From: Phycisphaerales bacterium
Lineage (GTDB): Bacteria; Planctomycetota; Phycisphaerae; Phycisphaerales; UBA1924
Reading direction: 5' to 3'
Assembly (NCBI GenBank): GCA_029260495.1
Contig: JAJDDD010000009.1
Location: 1-64,000 of the forward strand
DNA length: 64,000 nucleotides
Below, one piece after another: positions 5,360-41,047 of the stretch. Position 1 is the first letter of the stretch. Every line of letters begins with the position of its first letter. A program made the translations under genes and the position numbers. The notes under the pieces are model-generated. The model made no database searches, was not told the origin of the DNA, and worked only from the letters and a program-made list of their open reading frames with translations.

Positions 5360-6157
5360 ATGGCTGGTACATCGGCATCAAGGGTAACTCTGCGTCCGAA
5401 TATAGCTTCCGAGCCCGGGCGTGGGTGGAATTCGAGTCTGCTCCAGGCAGTTTCCGCGATGGCTCTCGCCCTGAGTCTGCTCCCCGGATGCACCGGAAAG
5501 GCAACGCCGCCGGGGGACTCGATCTTCGGGATGGCGGCTAAGCCGGCGACCGTCGCACTCTCAGCGGCGATCGTCCTGCCTGATGACGCCCCTCTGAGCC
5601 TGACCTATGACGACGCCGACAGTCAGAAGATCACGATCAAGCGCTCAGACCCCGATCACGAAGGGCTGATCGAGCTTTCCCGTCAGAAAGCAAGCGAGAC
5701 GAAACCATTCCGCATCGACCGGGTTCGCTGGCAGCATGATGGCTCGATCGTGCTGATCGAAACAGAAACTCGAGATGAACAAGTGCTTTCCCGGTACGAC
5801 CCCCCGTTGGTACTCATGCCCGCGCGCCTCGCGCCGAACGAGCCTCATGTTCAGCAGGTGCATCTCACCGTGCACCCACTGAAAAACCCGAAGCGCATTT
5901 CCCATCAGGGCCCAGCCGAAAACACACTGCTCTATGTGGGCAAGCAACGGATCCGCACGCAAGCAGGAGCCTTCGAGGCGGCCCGCGTGGAGTCGAGATT
6001 CACCGCCAACCTTGGGCTCGCTCAGGTGGACAACGAAACAATCAGCTTATACGCGCCGACTGTAGGTTTGGTTGCAGAGCGCGGAACAGAGCAAGCGAAG
6101 ACGTTCGGAATCGCTGTGAAGAATGACTCGTGGGAGTTTGTGCTGAGTGAGCGGTAG
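5360..6157 (+). CDS. Putative lipoprotein of unknown function
   Basis: 265 residues. A signal-like segment with the lipobox LPGC lies near residue 44 (ALALSLLPGC), so it is probably a lipoprotein. The start is uncertain: the ATG at 5360 gives a long, Arg-containing n-region, while the ATG at 5459 would give a signal lacking positive charge. The mature part is soluble and beta-rich with no recognised domain. It begins 34 bp from the divergent HEAT-repeat lipoprotein and ends 1 bp before the convergent ankyrin gene. The three neighbouring lipoprotein genes may reflect an envelope-related locus, but nothing ties them to one pathway. Confidence 0.78.
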   Translation: MAGTSASRVTLRPNIASEPGRGWNSSLLQAVSAMALALSLLPGCTGKATPPGDSIFGMAAKPATVALSAAIVLPDDAPLSLTYDDADSQKITIKRSDPDHEGLIELSRQKASETKPFRIDRVRWQHDGSIVLIETETRDEQVLSRYDPPLVLMPARLAPNEPHVQQVHLTVHPLKNPKRISHQGPAENTLLYVGKQRIRTQAGAFEAARVESRFTANLGLAQVDNETISLYAPTVGLVAERGTEQAKTFGIAVKNDSWEFVLSER

Positions 6158-33765: not shown

Positions 33766-34380
33766 ATGTCCTCCGACGCCCCAGTTCGTTCGGACGCCCC
33801 CAACGCGGAGGCCGCGTTGCTGGTCCGTCTGCAGGCGGGCGATGACGCTGCGTTTGAGGAGCTCGTCCGAGAAAATGCTCCGCGGATGCTCGCGGTCGCC
33901 CGGCGTTTTGTGGCGGATGAAAATGAAGCCCAGGATATTTTGCAAGAAGCGTTTCTTTCTGCGTTTCGCGGCATCCAACGTTTTGAAGGCGGCTCGAAAA
34001 TATCGACCTGGCTTCACCGGATTGTTGTCAACGCGGCGTTGATGCGTCTGCGCAAGAAAAAGCGCCGGCGCGAGGTGCAGGTTGATGAGCTATTGCCGGG
34101 GTTTTTAGAGGACGGTCATCTCGCGTCCATTCCCAAAGGCTGGCCCGCGGCGGACCAGCGCCTGGAGCAGGAGGACACGCGGGCGAAGATTCGCGGCCTG
34201 ATTGACGAACTGCCCGAGTCATACCGCTCGGTCTTGCTGCTGAGAGATATAGAGGAGTTTTCCACACAGGACGCTGCCCACATTCTTGAGATTACGCCGG
34301 GGGCGGTCAAGACCCGGCTGCACCGCGCCAGGCAGGCGCTGCGGGCATTGATTGAGCAGGAGCTGGCAAACGAGACGTAG
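33766..34380 (+). CDS. ECF-type RNA polymerase sigma factor
   Basis: 204 residues. Region 2 is LLVRLQAGDDAAFEELVREN, VARRFVADENEAQDILQEAF and STWLHRIVVNAAL. Region 4 is LIDELPESYRSVLLLRDIEE and TQDAAHILEITPGAVKTRLH, followed by RARQALR. A linker of about 40 residues separates them. It directs RNA polymerase to promoters of a stress or envelope regulon. The partner anti-sigma gene begins 4 bp after its stop. No other target is visible. Its AT content and the MRLRKKKRRREVQ basic patch are ordinary for the family. Confidence 0.95.
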   Translation: MSSDAPVRSDAPNAEAALLVRLQAGDDAAFEELVRENAPRMLAVARRFVADENEAQDILQEAFLSAFRGIQRFEGGSKISTWLHRIVVNAALMRLRKKKRRREVQVDELLPGFLEDGHLASIPKGWPAADQRLEQEDTRAKIRGLIDELPESYRSVLLLRDIEEFSTQDAAHILEITPGAVKTRLHRARQALRALIEQELANET

Positions 34381-34383
34381 TAC

Positions 34384-34638
34384 ATGGGAAAAGCAAAGCT
34401 GACATGCAGGGAGTTTGTGGAGTTCCTCGATGACTATGTCGCCGACGAGCAGTCGGGAGACGTGCGCGCGACCTTTGAGAAGCACATCGCCAAGTGCCCG
34501 CCATGCGCTGATTATGTTCGGACCTATCAAGAGACGATTGAGCTTGGCAAGTGTGTGTGCAGGGATGGCGAGGGAGCGCCTGGGGATGTGCCGGAACAGT
34601 TGATCGACGCGATATTGCAAGCCCGCCGGTCGCAATGA
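34384..34638 (+). CDS. zf-HC2 type anti-sigma factor
   Basis: 84 residues. The zinc-binding motif is the classic C...H-x3-C-x2-C: Cys8 in LTCREFVEFLDDYVADE, His33, then KCPPC. This anti-sigma domain binds the neighbouring ECF sigma factor and holds it inactive; zinc or redox change may release it. No membrane helix is seen, so it is a soluble type, and release by proteolysis is less likely. It starts 4 bp after the sigma gene. Confidence 0.9.
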   Translation: MGKAKLTCREFVEFLDDYVADEQSGDVRATFEKHIAKCPPCADYVRTYQETIELGKCVCRDGEGAPGDVPEQLIDAILQARRSQ

Positions 34639-35073: not shown

Positions 35074-35961
35074 ATGGCTGCACTTCCAATTCAAAGGCGA
35101 GCACTCGAAACTACACCCGCTCCGGTGATGCAGTGCATGGAAATCTGGGGAGGAAACGACGAAGTCAACAGCGCAATTTCCAACCCCGGGCTCGATATCT
35201 GGGTTTCGAGTCGGCCGCATCGCGGCGACAAACTTGGTGGAGATATTCATTACGTTTCCATGTGCGCCTCGGGGCGCATCTCCCGTGTGGCGCTCGCCGA
35301 TGTCGCGGGTCATGGCGATGAGGTCGCTGAACTGGCGACGAGCTTACGCAAGCAGATGCGCCGGCATATCAACACAATTGACCAGACACGATTTGCCAAA
35401 GCGTTGAATCGTGAGTTTGCCGAGCTATCAGAGCGCAGCGGCAAGTTTGCAACGGCGCTTCTCGCAGCTTACTTTTCTCCTTCGCAGCATGTTGTATTTT
35501 GCAATGCCGGGCATCCCAGGCCGTTGCATTATCGTGTTGAGAATAGGACTTGGTCGGCGCTTGATGAGGCCAAGTGTCACCCTGATCCTGAGCGGGCGGG
35601 AAAAATCGCCAATCTTCCGCTGGGTGTGATCGCAGAAACTGAATATTCACAGTTCGCCATGCCGCTCGACTACGGCGACCTGGTGCTGATCTATTCCGAC
35701 GCTCTTATTGAAGCGCCGGACGGCGAAGGTGATATGCTTGGCGAAGCCGGCCTGCTTGACCTTGTTCGAGAGTTGGACGCGAGCCGGCCTGAAACGGTCG
35801 TCAAGGAGTTGTTGAGTCGTATTGATCAGCTCGCGGACGGCGATCTTGAGGATGACGCGACCATTATTATGCTTCATCACAACTCCTCACCCCTGCCGAA
35901 GCAATCGATGGGATTGATGATGCGCAGCGCGGCAAGAATGCTCGGATTGGCGCCTGTTTAA
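35074..35961 (+). CDS. SpoIIE-type PPM protein serine phosphatase
   Basis: 295 residues from the ATG at 35074, preceded by GAGGAGG. A PP2C/SpoIIE core is seen: GGDIHYVSMCASGRISRVAL ADVAGHGDEVAEL with the metal-binding Asp in ADVAGHG, YFSPSQHVVFCNAGHPRPLH, DYGDLVLIYSDALIEAPDGE, and DDATIIMLHH. Such enzymes dephosphorylate anti-sigma antagonists (STAS proteins) or other phosphoserine proteins. A STAS gene lies 14 kb away at 49.4 kb, but no direct link is shown. No sensor domain is fused. It ends 27 bp before a four-gene chain and could be its first member. Confidence 0.9.
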   Translation: MAALPIQRRALETTPAPVMQCMEIWGGNDEVNSAISNPGLDIWVSSRPHRGDKLGGDIHYVSMCASGRISRVALADVAGHGDEVAELATSLRKQMRRHINTIDQTRFAKALNREFAELSERSGKFATALLAAYFSPSQHVVFCNAGHPRPLHYRVENRTWSALDEAKCHPDPERAGKIANLPLGVIAETEYSQFAMPLDYGDLVLIYSDALIEAPDGEGDMLGEAGLLDLVRELDASRPETVVKELLSRIDQLADGDLEDDATIIMLHHNSSPLPKQSMGLMMRSAARMLGLAPV

Positions 35962-35988
35962 CCTAACCAGTCAGCGGAGAACAGGCGC

Positions 35989-36213
35989 ATGGAGGCAGCA
36001 CTTTGGATCGTTCGCGGCGCGGCAGTGTACGCAATTATCGGTGTGTTTTTTAGTGTGTGGTTTGTCACGCGAGGCATAGGCCGCGTTGATCCGGCGACGA
36101 CGGGATCGACCTGGGGCTTTCGCGCGATGATCACACCGGCTTGTTGTGCGCTGTGGCCGCTGGCCTTCTTTTGGCTCCTGAGAGGAAGAAGCTGGAAAGG
36201 CTCCGAATCATGA
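35989..36213 (+). CDS. Small two-helix membrane protein (redox gene chain, gene 1)
   Basis: 74 residues: helix 1 ALWIVRGAAVYAIIGVFFSV, a turn with TRGIGRVDPATTGSTWGF, helix 2 AMITPACCALWPLAFFWLLR, and a short basic end. GGAG lies nine bases before the ATG. The stop overlaps the next start (ATGA). I do not recognise the family. Its position and coupling suggest a subunit or assembly partner of the membrane redox protein two genes downstream. Confidence 0.8.
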   Translation: MEAALWIVRGAAVYAIIGVFFSVWFVTRGIGRVDPATTGSTWGFRAMITPACCALWPLAFFWLLRGRSWKGSES

Positions 36214-36383
36214 CGCGGCCCCAACGTAAACTTCATCTTTTCATATGGCTTGTGCTTTCTGTTGCGATACCCGTCATTGTGGTCATTGCGATCAAAGCGC
36301 GGCCGGCGCCGCTAGCGGCTGCGCCTCCGACAGAGGATGTGAACGAAGCGGAATCACGCCCCGCGTTGGGTGGTGCACGATGA
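36210..36383 (+). CDS. Very small single-helix membrane protein (gene 2)
   Basis: 57 residues: basic start MTRPQRKLHLF, one membrane helix IWLVLSVAIPVIVVIAIKA, then a Pro/Ala-rich, acidic tail (APLAAAPPTEDVNEAESRPA). Both ends overlap neighbours by four bases (ATGA at 36210 and 36380), which strongly supports that it is translated. No family recognised. Confidence 0.8.
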   Translation: MTRPQRKLHLFIWLVLSVAIPVIVVIAIKARPAPLAAAPPTEDVNEAESRPALGGAR

Positions 36384-37438
36384 GCGTCGCTTACAAGGCT
36401 GTCAATTGGAACAGGCATAAGCTGGTGTACGACGCGCTGCTTCTCGTTGGCATTATTTTTTCCATCGGTGCTTTCTATACTGCGGGGCGCGTTGTTTTTT
36501 CTGGCGCCACCGATGAAACACTGATCATGCGCGCGCTCGCTTTCACTGCTTTTCTTCTGCTGCACATCATCCTCTGCGTGGGTCCGTTGTGTCGGATGAG
36601 CCCTCGCTTTCTTCCGCTTCTCTACAATCGCAGGCATATGGGCGTCGCGGTGTTTCTTGTTGGCCTGGTCCATGCGGTATTTGCACTGCTGCAATACAGC
36701 GCTGGCGGGGTTCTCAATCCGCTTGTGGCGCTGCTGGCGCGGGGCACGGACATCACAAGCATCGCACAGTTTCCATTTGAGTTTCTGGGTTTGGCAGCGA
36801 TCATGATTCTCTTCCTCATGGCAGCGACAAGCCATGATTTTTGGCTCGCCAATCTGACGCCGCGCTTGTGGAAGCGGCTTCATATGCTGGTGTACGTTGC
36901 TTACGCACTGATTGTTGCTCATGTTGCGATCGGGTTTCTGCAGGATGAGCGGCGGCCGGTCTACTTGTTCCTTCTTCTCGCCGGCGTTGGCGTTATTGCC
37001 GGGTTGCACGTTGCTGCAGGTTTTATGCAGTGGCGCCGGGATGCGCGATCCAGACGCGATGACAAGTCTTTTGTCGACGTCTGCCCGGTCTCTGAAATCA
37101 TTCCTGATCGGGCCAGGGTTGTGTTTGTCGGAGAGGAATCCATCGCCATCTTTCGTCACGGCGTGGGCGGCAAGTTGTTTTCAGCAATTTCGAGCGTCTG
37201 TGCTCATCAGGGCGGCCCGCTCGGGGAAGGGAAGATTATCGACGGTTGCGCCACCTGCCCCTGGCATGGCTACCAATACCGCCCTGAGGACGCTCAGTCT
37301 CCGCCTCCCTACACCGAGAGACTGAAGACGTACGACGTACGCATAGAAGAGGGAATCGTGCGCGTCAACCCCAAGCCCCATGCGCCGGGGACGCGCGTCG
37401 AGCCGGCGCAGCTCGCGTCACTGGAGACAAACGTATGA
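36380..37438 (+). CDS. Ferric-reductase-like (MsrQ-like) membrane domain fused to a Rieske domain (gene 3)
   Basis: 352 residues from the ATG at 36380. The first 230 residues hold six helices with paired histidines as in MsrQ/ferric reductases: FLLLHIILCVGPL, RRHMGVAVFLVGLVHAV, and KRLHMLVYVAYALIVAHVAI, which would bind two b-type haems. The last 100 residues are a Rieske [2Fe-2S] domain with ligands Cys274-x-His276 and Cys293-x2-His296 (CAHQGG and CPWHG). The order suggests electron flow between membrane haem and a soluble iron-sulfur centre. Which side of the membrane carries the Rieske domain, and the electron donor, are unknown. ATGA overlaps join it to both neighbours. Confidence 0.9.
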   Translation: MSVAYKAVNWNRHKLVYDALLLVGIIFSIGAFYTAGRVVFSGATDETLIMRALAFTAFLLLHIILCVGPLCRMSPRFLPLLYNRRHMGVAVFLVGLVHAVFALLQYSAGGVLNPLVALLARGTDITSIAQFPFEFLGLAAIMILFLMAATSHDFWLANLTPRLWKRLHMLVYVAYALIVAHVAIGFLQDERRPVYLFLLLAGVGVIAGLHVAAGFMQWRRDARSRRDDKSFVDVCPVSEIIPDRARVVFVGEESIAIFRHGVGGKLFSAISSVCAHQGGPLGEGKIIDGCATCPWHGYQYRPEDAQSPPPYTERLKTYDVRIEEGIVRVNPKPHAPGTRVEPAQLASLETNV

Positions 37439-38220
37439 CGAGCGAGAATCAAGACGCCGCAACAGGCCGGCCTGATGAGTTTTATGTTGGCTACCTTTCC
37501 ATGCCGCGAGGGCTTGGTGTTATTGTGCGCATTGTCTCCATATGCCTGCTTGTCATAGTTGTTGTTATGCAGGTTGTGCTCGCGGTGAGTCAGAACGACC
37601 CCGGCGACGGCGTGTATGAGTTTGGCATAGCAACAGAACTTTCAGGTCGAGTGATGGTGCGTCCGGGCCCCTTTTTGCTTGTCGCGGCTGAAGACGGCGG
37701 CATCGAACCGGTGCTTGTGGTCGGCGCCATGAAGACGGGCGCCTTGGCGCGGCTCAATGAGTACGACGGACAGCTTGTCCGTTTGACTGGATCGCTTATC
37801 TTTCGAGACGGGGTGACGATTCTGGAGCTTGCAGCGAACGATGACGCGATCACTGCTGAACAGGAACTTTCGCCGGCGATCGGCGCGACTCCGCGATCCG
37901 TCGGCCTTGTCACACTCCGCGGCGAGGTTATTGATCCCAAATGCTACTTCGGCACCATGAAACCCGGGCATGGCAAGGTGCATAAAGCCTGCGCAACACT
38001 TTGCATTCGCGGCGGGGTTCCTCCGGTCTTATGGAGTGTCGCTGCTGACGGCTCGCCGCGGTATCACCTGATTGTCAGCGGGCAGGATCGGCCGATGAAT
38101 GGGCAGGTGCTTGAGTATGTTGGTGAAATCATTGACATTGAAGGTGAAGAACTCTCGCTGGGGCAAGGCCCTCTTCGCATCCTTCGTGTCGATCACAGCG
38201 CGATAGAACTACGTCCGTGA
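37435..38220 (+). CDS. Membrane-anchored protein with CYFG...C...C motif (gene 4)
   Basis: 261 residues. A soluble N-terminal piece (FYVGYLSMPRG) is followed by one helix (VIVRIVSICLLVIVVVMQVV) and two beta domains. The first (VYEFGIATELSGRVMVRPGP) and second (LVTLRGEVIDPKCYFGTMKP) look like repeated OB-type barrels. The second carries a conserved-looking motif: C-Y-F-G-x-M-K-P-G-x-G-K-x-H-K-A-C-A-x2-C, then IRGGVPPVL. Three Cys and a His could bind a metal or haem. Not a known named family to me. The start overlaps the Rieske gene by four bases. The last bases overlap the convergent antiporter gene by 12 bp. Confidence 0.82.
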   Translation: MTSENQDAATGRPDEFYVGYLSMPRGLGVIVRIVSICLLVIVVVMQVVLAVSQNDPGDGVYEFGIATELSGRVMVRPGPFLLVAAEDGGIEPVLVVGAMKTGALARLNEYDGQLVRLTGSLIFRDGVTILELAANDDAITAEQELSPAIGATPRSVGLVTLRGEVIDPKCYFGTMKPGHGKVHKACATLCIRGGVPPVLWSVAADGSPRYHLIVSGQDRPMNGQVLEYVGEIIDIEGEELSLGQGPLRILRVDHSAIELRP

Positions 38221-40224
38221 ATCTTTCGACGTGGGCGCGGGAGGCGAGCTTGTTGGAGTCGCCGGCTCGACCTGTTCGCTGGCGGGAGACTCAGCGTCAA
38301 CCAGCGCAATGATGGTGTCCCCGGGCTTGGGATCGATCGGGCGATCCCACGTGACCACCGTCAGCTTTCCTGACTCGGCGACCACGAATAGCGGCAAGGC
38401 GCGATCGGCGTACATTGCTTCGTAGTCAGCGTAGGGAAACTCACTGCGCAACGTCGTCGCCTTCACAGACGCTCCATGTCCAACACGCGACGCGAGGCGG
38501 GCGTACGTCGGGCCTGTGGAAAAGAGCACGCGACCGGGAACGGATTCACCCTGGTCCTTGTTCTCATTTTCTCGTTTTTTATCCCGCCCTTCCGGAGCCA
38601 GTTGGAAGACCTCCGACCGCCCGAACAACGAGATGAAGTTCTGCACCGCGAGTGTGTTGACTTCTGTATTCGCCGTCATCATCAACAGTCTGCCGATCCC
38701 GGTGAGATCAAGCAGCCGCACGATGTCGTTGGAAAGGACGCCCCCTTGTATCGCGGACAGTCCCGCGAGCCGGGCGGCTGCGATGTTTTGGCGATTGGTG
38801 TCAATAAGGAGAACAGCGAAGCCCAGGCCTTTGAGCGTTTGCGCGATCTCGCGCGAAAGTTTGTGCGCTCCCACGATGAGCAGGCCTTGTGGATCTCGAT
38901 CCGCAACCTTGAGCCATCGCGCCATCGGGCCGGCGGTGAGTCCATAGACAACCACGGTCACCAGAATTACGACGAATGTAATCGGGACGATGAGGTTCGC
39001 GTCCGTGAACTGGCCTTGCTCTTCCAAACGCAGGCCGAAGACCGCTGCGACTGCCGCCGCGACAATCCCGCGCGGCGCCATCCACGCGATAAACGTCTTC
39101 TGATGAACTGAGAGCGGAGAGCGAATGGTTGAAAACATCGTCGCCAGTGGGCGCGCGATCAAAATGAGAGTCCCGGCGAACAACACACTTTGCAGCCCAA
39201 CCTCTTTGACGCTTTCCAGATCAATTCTTGCCGCGAGAATGATGAACAGACTCGATATGAGCAGAACACGAAGGTTTTCTTTGAACTCGACTATGTGCCG
39301 GATGTCCACCGCGCGCTGATTCGCCAGCGCCACGCCCATGACGGTGACGGCGAAGAGGCCGGATTCCTCCTGCATCATGTCTGAGATCGTAAAGGTCGCC
39401 AGGACCAGCGCCACGCTCATCGGGTTGATGAGTGAATCAGGCAGCCAGTAGCGTTTGATGATCTGCGTCAACAGGAACGCCGAAGCGATCCCAAGCAACC
39501 CGCCTCCTAGAAGCGTCAGCAGGATGCTCTTGATCGCCTCCAGCGTCGCATGCTGAACGCCGGTCGCGAGAATGACCTCGAACACGAGCACCGCCAGCAG
39601 CGCTCCAACTGGATCAATGACAATCCCTTCCCAGCGAAGAATCGGTCCCACCGGAGCATGGGGTCGGATGTGCCGAATCAGCGGACCCACCACTGTCGGA
39701 CCGGTCACCACGAGCACAGCGCCAATCAGCACGCACAACGCCGGATCCAAACCAAAGATCAGCCACGCGAAGAGAGCCGCGACACCCCACGTCACCAAGA
39801 CGCCAACAGTGACAAGAGAAAGAACCACCCGCCCGACCTGAGGCAGTTCGCTGAATCGCAGCGTCAGCCCGCCCTCGTACAGAATGAGCGCGACCGACAA
39901 CGACGTGATTGGCAGCACCAGATTTGGAAGGAGCGTGTCCGGATCAAGCCCCCCAAGAATCGGCCCAATCAGTATGCCGATCAGCAACAGGACAAGAATC
40001 GAAGGCAGGCGCAGTATCGACGCGAGGGCCTGCGACGCCACCCCCAGCACCAGGACGGCGGCCAGTCCGCGCAGGACATTGTCAGCGGATGCCAACAGCA
40101 GCAGGGGGGCGGCGTCATGCACGATTGGGTGTGTGCTCCGAATGCGCGAGAAGTGGCGGGCGATGTCAGCAGGGCGCACAAGCTTAGCGAGATGCCAACG
40201 ATGCGGGCCCTGCTTGGCCGCCAA
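38209..40224 (-). CDS. CPA1-type Na+/H+ antiporter with TrkA-like C-terminal domain
   Basis: 671 residues. About twelve helices from residue 50 to 440 make a CPA1 exchanger, with LILYEGGLTLRFSEL, VLVVTGPTVVGPLIRHIRPH (the TGPT-type unwound helix) and RWEGIVIDPVGALLAVLVFE (the Asp in the ion site, DP). IARPLATMF and WMAPRGIVAAAVAAVFGLRL (a conserved Arg) follow. The C-terminus is a Rossmann TrkA-N-like domain (LLIVGAHKLSREIAQTLKGL, VLLIDTNRQNIAAARLAG) and a TrkA-C-like end, suggesting nucleotide gating. It exports Na+ or K+ for protons. The start is uncertain, as the first 40 residues are not membrane-like. Confidence 0.9.
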   Translation of the reverse strand: MAAKQGPHRWHLAKLVRPADIARHFSRIRSTHPIVHDAAPLLLLASADNVLRGLAAVLVLGVASQALASILRLPSILVLLLIGILIGPILGGLDPDTLLPNLVLPITSLSVALILYEGGLTLRFSELPQVGRVVLSLVTVGVLVTWGVAALFAWLIFGLDPALCVLIGAVLVVTGPTVVGPLIRHIRPHAPVGPILRWEGIVIDPVGALLAVLVFEVILATGVQHATLEAIKSILLTLLGGGLLGIASAFLLTQIIKRYWLPDSLINPMSVALVLATFTISDMMQEESGLFAVTVMGVALANQRAVDIRHIVEFKENLRVLLISSLFIILAARIDLESVKEVGLQSVLFAGTLILIARPLATMFSTIRSPLSVHQKTFIAWMAPRGIVAAAVAAVFGLRLEEQGQFTDANLIVPITFVVILVTVVVYGLTAGPMARWLKVADRDPQGLLIVGAHKLSREIAQTLKGLGFAVLLIDTNRQNIAAARLAGLSAIQGGVLSNDIVRLLDLTGIGRLLMMTANTEVNTLAVQNFISLFGRSEVFQLAPEGRDKKRENENKDQGESVPGRVLFSTGPTYARLASRVGHGASVKATTLRSEFPYADYEAMYADRALPLFVVAESGKLTVVTWDRPIDPKPGDTIIALVDAESPASEQVEPATPTSSPPAPTSKDSRT

Positions 40225-40411: not shown

Positions 40412-41047
40412 ATGGCTATTCGACTCGGCGACACGGCTCCTGATTTCACAGCACAGACCACTGAAGGGGAGATTCATTTTCATGATTGGCTGGGGGGTGG
40501 CTGGGGCGTGCTGTTCTCGCACCCCGCGGACTTCACGCCGGTTTGCACCACGGAGCTTGGCGCGGTGGCGAAACTGAAGCCTGAGTTCCAGAAGAGGAAT
40601 GTGAAGGTCGCGGGGCTGAGTGTGGACCCACTGAAGGACCATGAGGCCTGGTCGAAGGACATCGCTGAGACACAGGGGACGGCGCTCAACTTCCCCCTGA
40701 TCGCGGACCCGGATCGGACAGTCTCGGAGCTGTACGACATGATCCATCCGAAAGCGGATGCGACCCTGACCGTGCGATCAGTCTTTGTCATCGGTCCGGA
40801 CAAGAAGGTGAAGCTGATGCTGACCTACCCCGCGAGCACGGGGCGGAACTTTGATGAGCTCTTGCGCGTGATTGATTCGCTGCAGTTGACAGCGGAGTAT
40901 CAGGTCGCGACGCCGGCAAACTGGTCTGAGGGTGAGGACTGCATCATCGTGCCTGCGGTTTCCAATGCGGAGGCGGATGCGAAGTTCCCGAAGGGGTACA
41001 CGGAAGTCAAGCCATACCTGCGGTACACGCCGCAGCCGAATATTTGA
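40412..41047 (+). CDS. 1-Cys peroxiredoxin (Prx6 type)
   Basis: 211 residues. Reduces H2O2 and organic peroxides. The catalytic peroxidatic Cys45 sits in the loop LFSHPADFTPVCTTELG. The Prx6 class is shown by its length, by SVFVIGPDKKVKLMLTYPAS, and by the C-terminal arm (ANWSEGEDCIIVPAVSNAEA). The Cys in EDCII could help or be structural. GAGGAG lies ten bases before the ATG. It lies 23 bp before a persulfide-dioxygenase-like gene, and the pair suggests a role in peroxide and sulfane-sulfur defence. Confidence 0.95.
   Translation: MAIRLGDTAPDFTAQTTEGEIHFHDWLGGGWGVLFSHPADFTPVCTTELGAVAKLKPEFQKRNVKVAGLSVDPLKDHEAWSKDIAETQGTALNFPLIADPDRTVSELYDMIHPKADATLTVRSVFVIGPDKKVKLMLTYPASTGRNFDELLRVIDSLQLTAEYQVATPANWSEGEDCIIVPAVSNAEADAKFPKGYTEVKPYLRYTPQPNI

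Follow-up and report, generated by a model that had tools for sequence, protein, structure and literature searches.

The stretch of DNA considered here, called the window in what follows, comprises the first 64,000 nucleotides of contig JAJDDD010000009.1 (C9) in the 3.2 Mb genome of a Phycisphaerales bacterium (assembly GCA_029260495.1). Four consecutive genes on its forward (+) strand, referred to as genes 1 to 4, form a cassette that probably encodes a small transmembrane electron-transfer complex. Gene 1 (35989–36213) encodes a membrane protein of 74 residues, an open reading frame (ORF) left blank by both Pfam and NCBIfam. Gene 2 (36210–36383) specifies a single-anchor protein of 57 residues, with a basic N-terminus and a helix at about residues 10–28. 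Gene 3 (36380–37438) is a 352-residue fusion of a ferric reductase domain (FRD) and a Rieske [2Fe–2S] domain, and gene 4 (37435–38220) codes for a 261-residue protein modelled as a membrane-anchored tandem OB-fold protein. The genes are chained by ATGA stop/start overlaps at 36210–36213 (genes 1/2), 36380–36383 (genes 2/3) and 37435–37438 (genes 3/4), all on the + strand. This chain had been described in a first-pass annotation, made from the letters of the sequence, and its coordinates, lengths and overlaps all proved correct.

Gene 3, a ferric reductase domain fused to a Rieske domain

Both halves of gene 3 are recognized by Pfam, as Ferric_reduct (PF01794, 4e-12, 46.7 bits for a gathering score of 28) and as Rieske (PF00355, 5e-13, 49.2 bits for a cut-off of 20.3). 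The FRD membrane part (36413–37045, + strand, about residues 12–222) contains six membrane helices, and is followed by a Rieske domain of the dioxygenase-ferredoxin type (37067–37393, + strand, about residues 230–338). Among 54 aligned gene 3 sequences, zero variation was observed at H86/H98 and H168/H181, which occupy the FRD haem positions, nor at the Rieske ligands C274-x-H276 and C293-x2-H296. H152 is likewise invariant, H62 and H210 nearly so. The description of gene 3 as a bis-haem ferric-reductase-like domain joined to a Rieske domain is thus borne out. The different electron path suggested in the first-pass annotation, with a Rieske domain where flavin partners are usual, agrees with the lack of any Pfam match at E ≤ 1 for a domain binding flavin adenine dinucleotide (FAD) or NAD(P)H.

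The predicted model of gene 3 (pLDDT 89.8, pTM 0.82) was compared with known structures. Its membrane part aligns with STEAP2 (7tai) over 203 residues (Z 18.0, root-mean-square deviation 3.4) and with the NOX5 membrane domain (Z 16.9), and its Rieske part with BphA3 (2e4q) over 105 residues (Z 15.5, root-mean-square deviation 1.9). In rank, the Rieske part is closest to soluble dioxygenase ferredoxins (BphA3, CarAc) and the membrane part to the STEAP/NOX proteins. No bc-type complex is present among the structure matches listed for gene 3, a comparison that included no test aimed at bc complexes. The window's gene 3 clusters in the tree with 11 Phycisphaerae sequences (support 98/96), in line with a phycisphaeral host.

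The distribution of charge suggests a cytosolic location for the N-terminus, for two basic loops and for the Rieske domain. Hydropathy and charge are together consistent with six helices and two cytosolic termini. With both termini inside, the Rieske domain would therefore sit where the dehydrogenase module is found in NOX/FRE proteins. In this topology, helices 3 and 5 would carry H86 and H168 at their inner ends, with H98 and H181 farther out, which suggests one inner and one outer haem.

Gene 4, an anchored protein with a conserved C-M-H-C-C site

Gene 4 has zero matches in Pfam or NCBIfam; sequence searches gave no credible solved relative, and Foldseek returned nothing at E ≤ 1e-3. Its predicted model (pLDDT 90.8) consists of one anchor helix (37507–37590, + strand, residues 25–52) and two OB folds, at about residues 64–146 (37624–37872, + strand) and 152–261 (37888–38217, + strand). 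The first matches SSB (4dam, Z 7.9, residues 63–146) and the second potempin A (8b2m, Z 8.0, residues 152–261). Two short helices inside the second OB fold carry the site C170-x4-M175-x7-H183-x2-C186-x3-C190 (37942–38004, + strand). These five residues are unchanged in 55 of 55 sequences, in which D167, K169, G173, P177, A187, G193 and G194 are also invariant.

A profile of this second domain retrieved 17 cassette copies and five others from 195 planctomycete genomes. One stand-alone relative (L090) adjoins a gene for a fusion of Rieske and glutamate synthase domains (Rieske-GltS, described below), the fetched stretch containing no gene 3. Another (L106, 4890–5306) stands beside an RND-like pump, recognized by eye, and a CusB-type membrane-fusion protein identified by Pfam; a third (L107, about 5903–6106) has as neighbours an RND-like pump and an ORF resembling outer-membrane factors, both named by eye. 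The C, H, C and C residues are retained in L105, L106 and L090, and M175 is retained in L090. L105 and L106, the two relatives tested, have no significant Pfam match. The retention of these four residues, with two relatives beside metal-efflux-like genes, suggests that the site binds a metal and makes gene 4 the probable metal-binding partner of gene 3. Copper as the metal bound is a guess. Small C-H-C-C OB-domain proteins may belong to a broader family of metal binders in the periplasm. The first-pass annotation had left a choice between metal and haem: the invariant site and the context of its relatives make a metal probable, and haem is unsupported. Haem c was rejected for gene 4, whose sequence contains no CxxCH.

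Conservation and distribution of the cassette

The loci compared here are the best 80 of at least 569 stretches encoding gene 3 relatives, among at least 590 pattern matches. They were chosen by likeness to gene 3, whereas the whole-genome planctomycete draws (195 genomes) were not. According to the record titles, they belong to Bacteroidota (26), Acidobacteriota (22), Planctomycetota (12), Verrucomicrobiota (9) and Balneolota (4), with one each from Gemmatimonadota, Lentisphaerota, Krumholzibacteriota and Rhodothermota, and three ungrouped. Cultured bearers among them include Flagellimonas flava (L044) and Fibrisoma limi (L031). The nine group labels require 10 changes on the gene 3 tree, for a minimum of 8, and inheritance of the cassette thus looks largely vertical.

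In 79 of the 80 loci, gene 3 is followed by a gene 4 relative (E ≤ 1e-3). With gene 4 starts chosen by script, the spacing is a 4-base overlap in 27 loci, no more than 25 bases in 56 and no more than 120 in 75. The cassette is therefore more than a chance arrangement. The exception (L046, 9041–10298) keeps the first gene 4 residues and then runs straight into a Rieske-GltS gene deprived of its Rieske end, either a deletion or an assembly fault. Full-length gene 3 was found in 17 of the 195 planctomycete genomes and in 8 of 198 in a Bacteroidota draw, so that the cassette is not common in either group; full length means here a match over most of the query (in two pieces in G101), 41 of the 58 planctomycete genomes listed having been dropped as Rieske-only. 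Full-length gene 4 occurs in the identical 17 of 195 genomes and always adjoins gene 3, the other four of the 21 genomes listed containing matches to the C-terminal domain only. The lasting neighbourhood of genes 3 and 4, which the first-pass annotation had put forward as a check of its own proposal, is thus found in both samples.

Genes 3 and 4 are also found as one reading frame, in L010 (Acidobacteriota) and in L088 and L089 (Planctomycetota). A joint model of the two proteins through the L010 fusion was set aside, as the mixed alignment had placed gene 4 rows on gene 3 (14–21% identity). Over 45 shared loci, gene 3 and gene 4 distances correlate with r 0.76, the maximum of 2000 permutations being 0.25; this value is uncorrected for shared ancestry.

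Genes 1 and 2 have no significant family match in Pfam or NCBIfam, and the earlier suggestion that they resemble small subunits of respiratory complexes is accordingly unproven. Ahead of gene 3, 75 of the 80 loci encode a gene 1 relative (E ≤ 1e-3), at a distance of about 3 kb in L025. For gene 2, a filter on position and motif retains a similar anchor protein upstream in 65 loci, against just 20 with relatives detected by BLAST at 1e-3. Counting the window, 66 loci give short forms of 41–73 residues in 29 cases and long forms of 125–199 residues in 37, as measured from the shortest fitting start, which the filter picked. The window's gene 2 is among the short forms of this family.

Neighbouring and co-occurring genes

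A SpoIIE-type gene (35074–35961; PF07228, 1.4e-33) ends 27 bases ahead of gene 1, as the first-pass annotation had indicated. Its suggested role as leader of the unit did not hold: no relative was found at E ≤ 1e-3 across 81 loci nor in the wider locus set, the window's own locus record (L001) being too short to contain the gene. Just upstream of this phosphatase, at 33766–34638, lie genes for an extracytoplasmic-function-type sigma factor and a zf-HC2 zinc-finger anti-sigma-like protein, in what may be a separate regulatory group. On the other side, a gene for a Na+/H+ exchanger with a TrkA-N domain (38212–40224) is convergent to gene 4, and is followed by an AhpC-type peroxiredoxin gene (40412–41044). 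An antiporter-like gene, named by eye, is found near the cassette in 6 of the 80 loci.

Flanks of up to 8 kb were considered at each locus, several loci being shorter, and the opposite-strand neighbour clusters 2, 3, 9 and 12 were taken as shadow frames of the cassette and ignored. The recurrent flank genes are VTT/putative-ATP-grasp (28 loci), DinB-like (28), TANGO2 (24), YHS-like (22), Acetyltransf_5 (21), DoxX-like (18) and LPLAT-like (10). The VTT, alpha/beta hydrolase, GNAT (Acetyltransf_5), SDR, TANGO2 and GH3 labels are based on Pfam. Those of YHS (28.4 for a cut-off of 30.3) and DinB-like (21.0 for 24.8) lie below cut-off, and that of ATP-grasp comes from weak Pfam matches (RimK 0.085). 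DoxX, LPLAT, LysE, the antiporter-like neighbour and the RND pumps were named by eye. Neither a respiratory nor a NosZ-type operon was noticed by eye in the neighbour clusters or ORFs, no NosZ search having been made.

The VTT/putative-ATP-grasp gene often shares an operon with DinB-like and TANGO2 genes. On contig C9 of the window's genome, at about 530 kb (L108:5554–11590), a row comprises GH3, DinB-like, TANGO2 and alpha/beta-hydrolase/VTT/putative-ATP-grasp (905 residues) genes. From GH3 to ATP-grasp, this row is operon-like, and lies about 0.5 Mb from the cassette.

The putative ATP-grasp gene was the one subjected to a genome-wide test, DinB-like, TANGO2, GNAT and the others being counted in flanks only. 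Among planctomycetes it is present in all 17 cassette genomes and in 13 of the 178 others (Fisher 1e-16), a genome being counted when the match reached query residue 500 or beyond (30 of 45 genomes listed by the search; the dropped matches spanned at most residues 15–258). By family, the figures are 7 of 7 versus 2 of 50, the 57 families being an assumed lower bound. The Bacteroidota draw gives 8 of 8 versus 31 of 190 (1.2e-6), or 7 of 7 without the chosen centre (6e-6). Of the 45 genomes traced from cassette loci, 43 contain the gene as well; this set derives from 46 of the 80 loci, L053 contributing no genome, and in five of them (L002, L004, L017, L026 and L073) the gene had already been seen next to the cassette. 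The three tallies share some genomes, since the L068 genome is G076, and G199, G223, G224 and G235 also belong to the Bacteroidota draw; shared ancestry is only partly corrected in these co-occurrence tests.

Two further proteins found near the cassette are themselves Rieske fusions, one with a thiamine diphosphate enzyme (Rieske-ThDP, 13 of the 80 flanks) and the other with a flavin mononucleotide (FMN) glutamate synthase (Rieske-GltS, 20 flanks); either one is present in 23 flanks. No description of these fusions was found in the open-licence PubMed Central (PMC) literature searched. In the window's genome, the two genes lie close together on contig C8 (L086:5601–10464) and encode 681 and 543 residues, respectively. 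Of the 195 planctomycete genomes, 10 encode Rieske-ThDP, 13 Rieske-GltS and 9 both, which links the two fusions to each other; to count as Rieske-GltS, a match had to cover the Rieske end of the query (13 of 21 listed). The cassette is present in 6 of these 10 and 6 of these 13 genomes, versus 17 of 195 overall. Neither these fusions nor the DinB-like/TANGO2/putative-ATP-grasp operon had been seen as company of the cassette in the first-pass annotation.

Proposed mechanism and alternative explanations

The four genes are best read as encoding a small transmembrane complex, and it is fairly probable that this complex is an outward electron conduit ending at the metal site of gene 4. A cytosolic donor, perhaps an NAD(P)H flavoprotein and in some genomes perhaps the Rieske-fused enzymes, would reduce gene 3 at its cytosolic Rieske cluster. 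From there the electron would move to an inner b haem (H86/H168) and on to an outer b haem (H98/H181), before reaching gene 4 at its second OB domain, which would face outward and whose C-M-H-C-C site would hold a metal, copper being a first guess. The small membrane subunits would come from genes 1 and 2. More weakly, co-occurrence hints that the electrons may serve the pathway of the linked VTT/putative-ATP-grasp gene. In its widest form, the proposal would be that, in at least nine phyla, a cytosolic dioxygenase-type Rieske cluster replaces the flavin module of a NOX-like haem protein, gene 4 is an outer acceptor of a new class of membrane-anchored OB-fold metalloproteins, and the whole powers a conserved pathway of the lipid or peptide-ligase kind (DinB-like, TANGO2, VTT/putative ATP-grasp, GNAT, LPLAT-like). 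This wide form is advanced tentatively and appears possible, if less likely than not.

Several observations weigh against the outward conduit. The OB matches of gene 4 reach only Z values of about 8, as expected for a common arrangement, and its C-M-H-C-C residues might instead bind zinc or include a disulphide. M175 is lost in the stand-alone relatives L105 and L106; by eye, L105 (447–896) adjoins a molybdopterin-type enzyme and L109 has no nameable context. The fused frame of L010 reaches the end of its contig. At the thresholds used, 11 of the 17 planctomycete cassette genomes lack both Rieske-fused enzymes, which are therefore not general partners. The direction of the electrons could also be reversed. 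They would then enter from the membrane or periplasm, through gene 4 or a quinol, and the Rieske domain would pass them on to Rieske-fused enzymes in the cytosol, for instance Rieske-GltS, which would depend on a reductant. The flank counts (23 of 80 loci), the presence of both fusions on contig C8 and the excess of the cassette in genomes encoding them (6 of 10 and 6 of 13) all fit this view, whereas the 11 genomes devoid of both do not. A further argument against reversal is that electrons are drawn outward when the membrane potential is positive outside, and reverse flow appears unlikely.

Alternatively, gene 3 might reduce copper or iron for gene 4 to carry or pass on, in which case gene 4 would not be a relay in a longer chain. 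FRD proteins of the STEAP/FRE kind are metal reducers, relatives of the gene 4 domain stand beside CusB-type and RND-like genes (L106) or RND-like genes (L107), and YHS-like genes lie near 22 of the 80 loci. However, no recurrent metal transporter was seen among the neighbour clusters viewed by eye, no dedicated transporter search having been made, and the recurrent neighbours look lipid- or ligase-like; metal handling of this sort is judged improbable. In another reading, compatible with the outward conduit, the electrons would serve to desaturate, hydroxylate or reduce an unusual lipid of the membrane, or a peptide, that the linked GNAT, LPLAT-like and VTT/putative-ATP-grasp genes produce. 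This use would agree with the distribution of the putative ATP-grasp gene (17 of 17 versus 13 of 178 planctomycetes, 8 of 8 versus 31 of 190 in the Bacteroidota draw, 43 of 45 in the partly overlapping cassette-locus genomes, 28 of 80 flanks). Nevertheless, no oxygenase or desaturase was identified, the gene is found without the cassette too, and its label depends on the weak matches mentioned above, so that this use is possible, if rather unlikely. Repair of periplasmic methionine sulphoxide in the manner of MsrPQ is highly improbable. A weak NCBIfam MsrQ match (32.4 bits) speaks for it, far under the model cut-off of 130, and the PF00174 molybdoprotein is absent from 16 of 30 cassette genomes tested. 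For the window's genome, zero PF00174 matches contradict it.

Comparison with known systems

No description of the four-gene set was found in the open-licence PMC literature searched. A 2013 survey includes FRD and Rieske in one architecture, model M4, which its legend names with FMN (PMC3591440); the passages concerned make no mention of gene 4, of the small proteins or of the linked operon. Two other papers connect TANGO2 with haem trafficking (PMC10470608) and with acyl-CoA binding (PMC11867700). The frequent company of the cassette with a TANGO2-holding operon provides a bacterial setting for this disputed role.

Gene 4 shares with the CusF type an OB fold with a predicted metal site, and two of its domain relatives lie by efflux-like genes. 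CusF-type copper chaperones are small OB folds with a metal site. In contrast, the C-M-H-C-C residues of gene 4 lie on two inserted short helices, and the protein has a membrane anchor and a second OB fold. The Rieske part of gene 3 has the fold and ligand pattern of the BphA3/CarAc dioxygenase-type ferredoxins, and differs from them in being covalently joined to a membrane haem domain.

Gene 3 is a member of the FRD superfamily, and is neither NOX/FRE nor MsrQ. Like the FRE/NOX/STEAP proteins, it has a six-helix FRD with two histidine pairs and the structural likeness to STEAP2 (Z 18.0) and NOX5 (Z 16.9) described above. It is not a NOX/FRE protein, since no FAD or NAD(P)H domain was found in it; a C-terminal Rieske domain is present instead, along with the constant partner gene 4. 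It is an FRD membrane protein as MsrQ (YedZ) is, with the 32.4-bit NCBIfam match. It is not MsrQ, since this match is below the cut-off of 130 and the window's genome contains no MsrP-type protein; it is moreover Rieske-fused. FRD proteins such as NOX, STEAP, the ferric reductases and MsrQ are known with flavin input. If the proposed conduit is true, a dioxygenase-type Rieske input combined with a constant new outer partner would make a separate transmembrane electron route, and would give a testable role to proteins which have no match in Pfam or NCBIfam.

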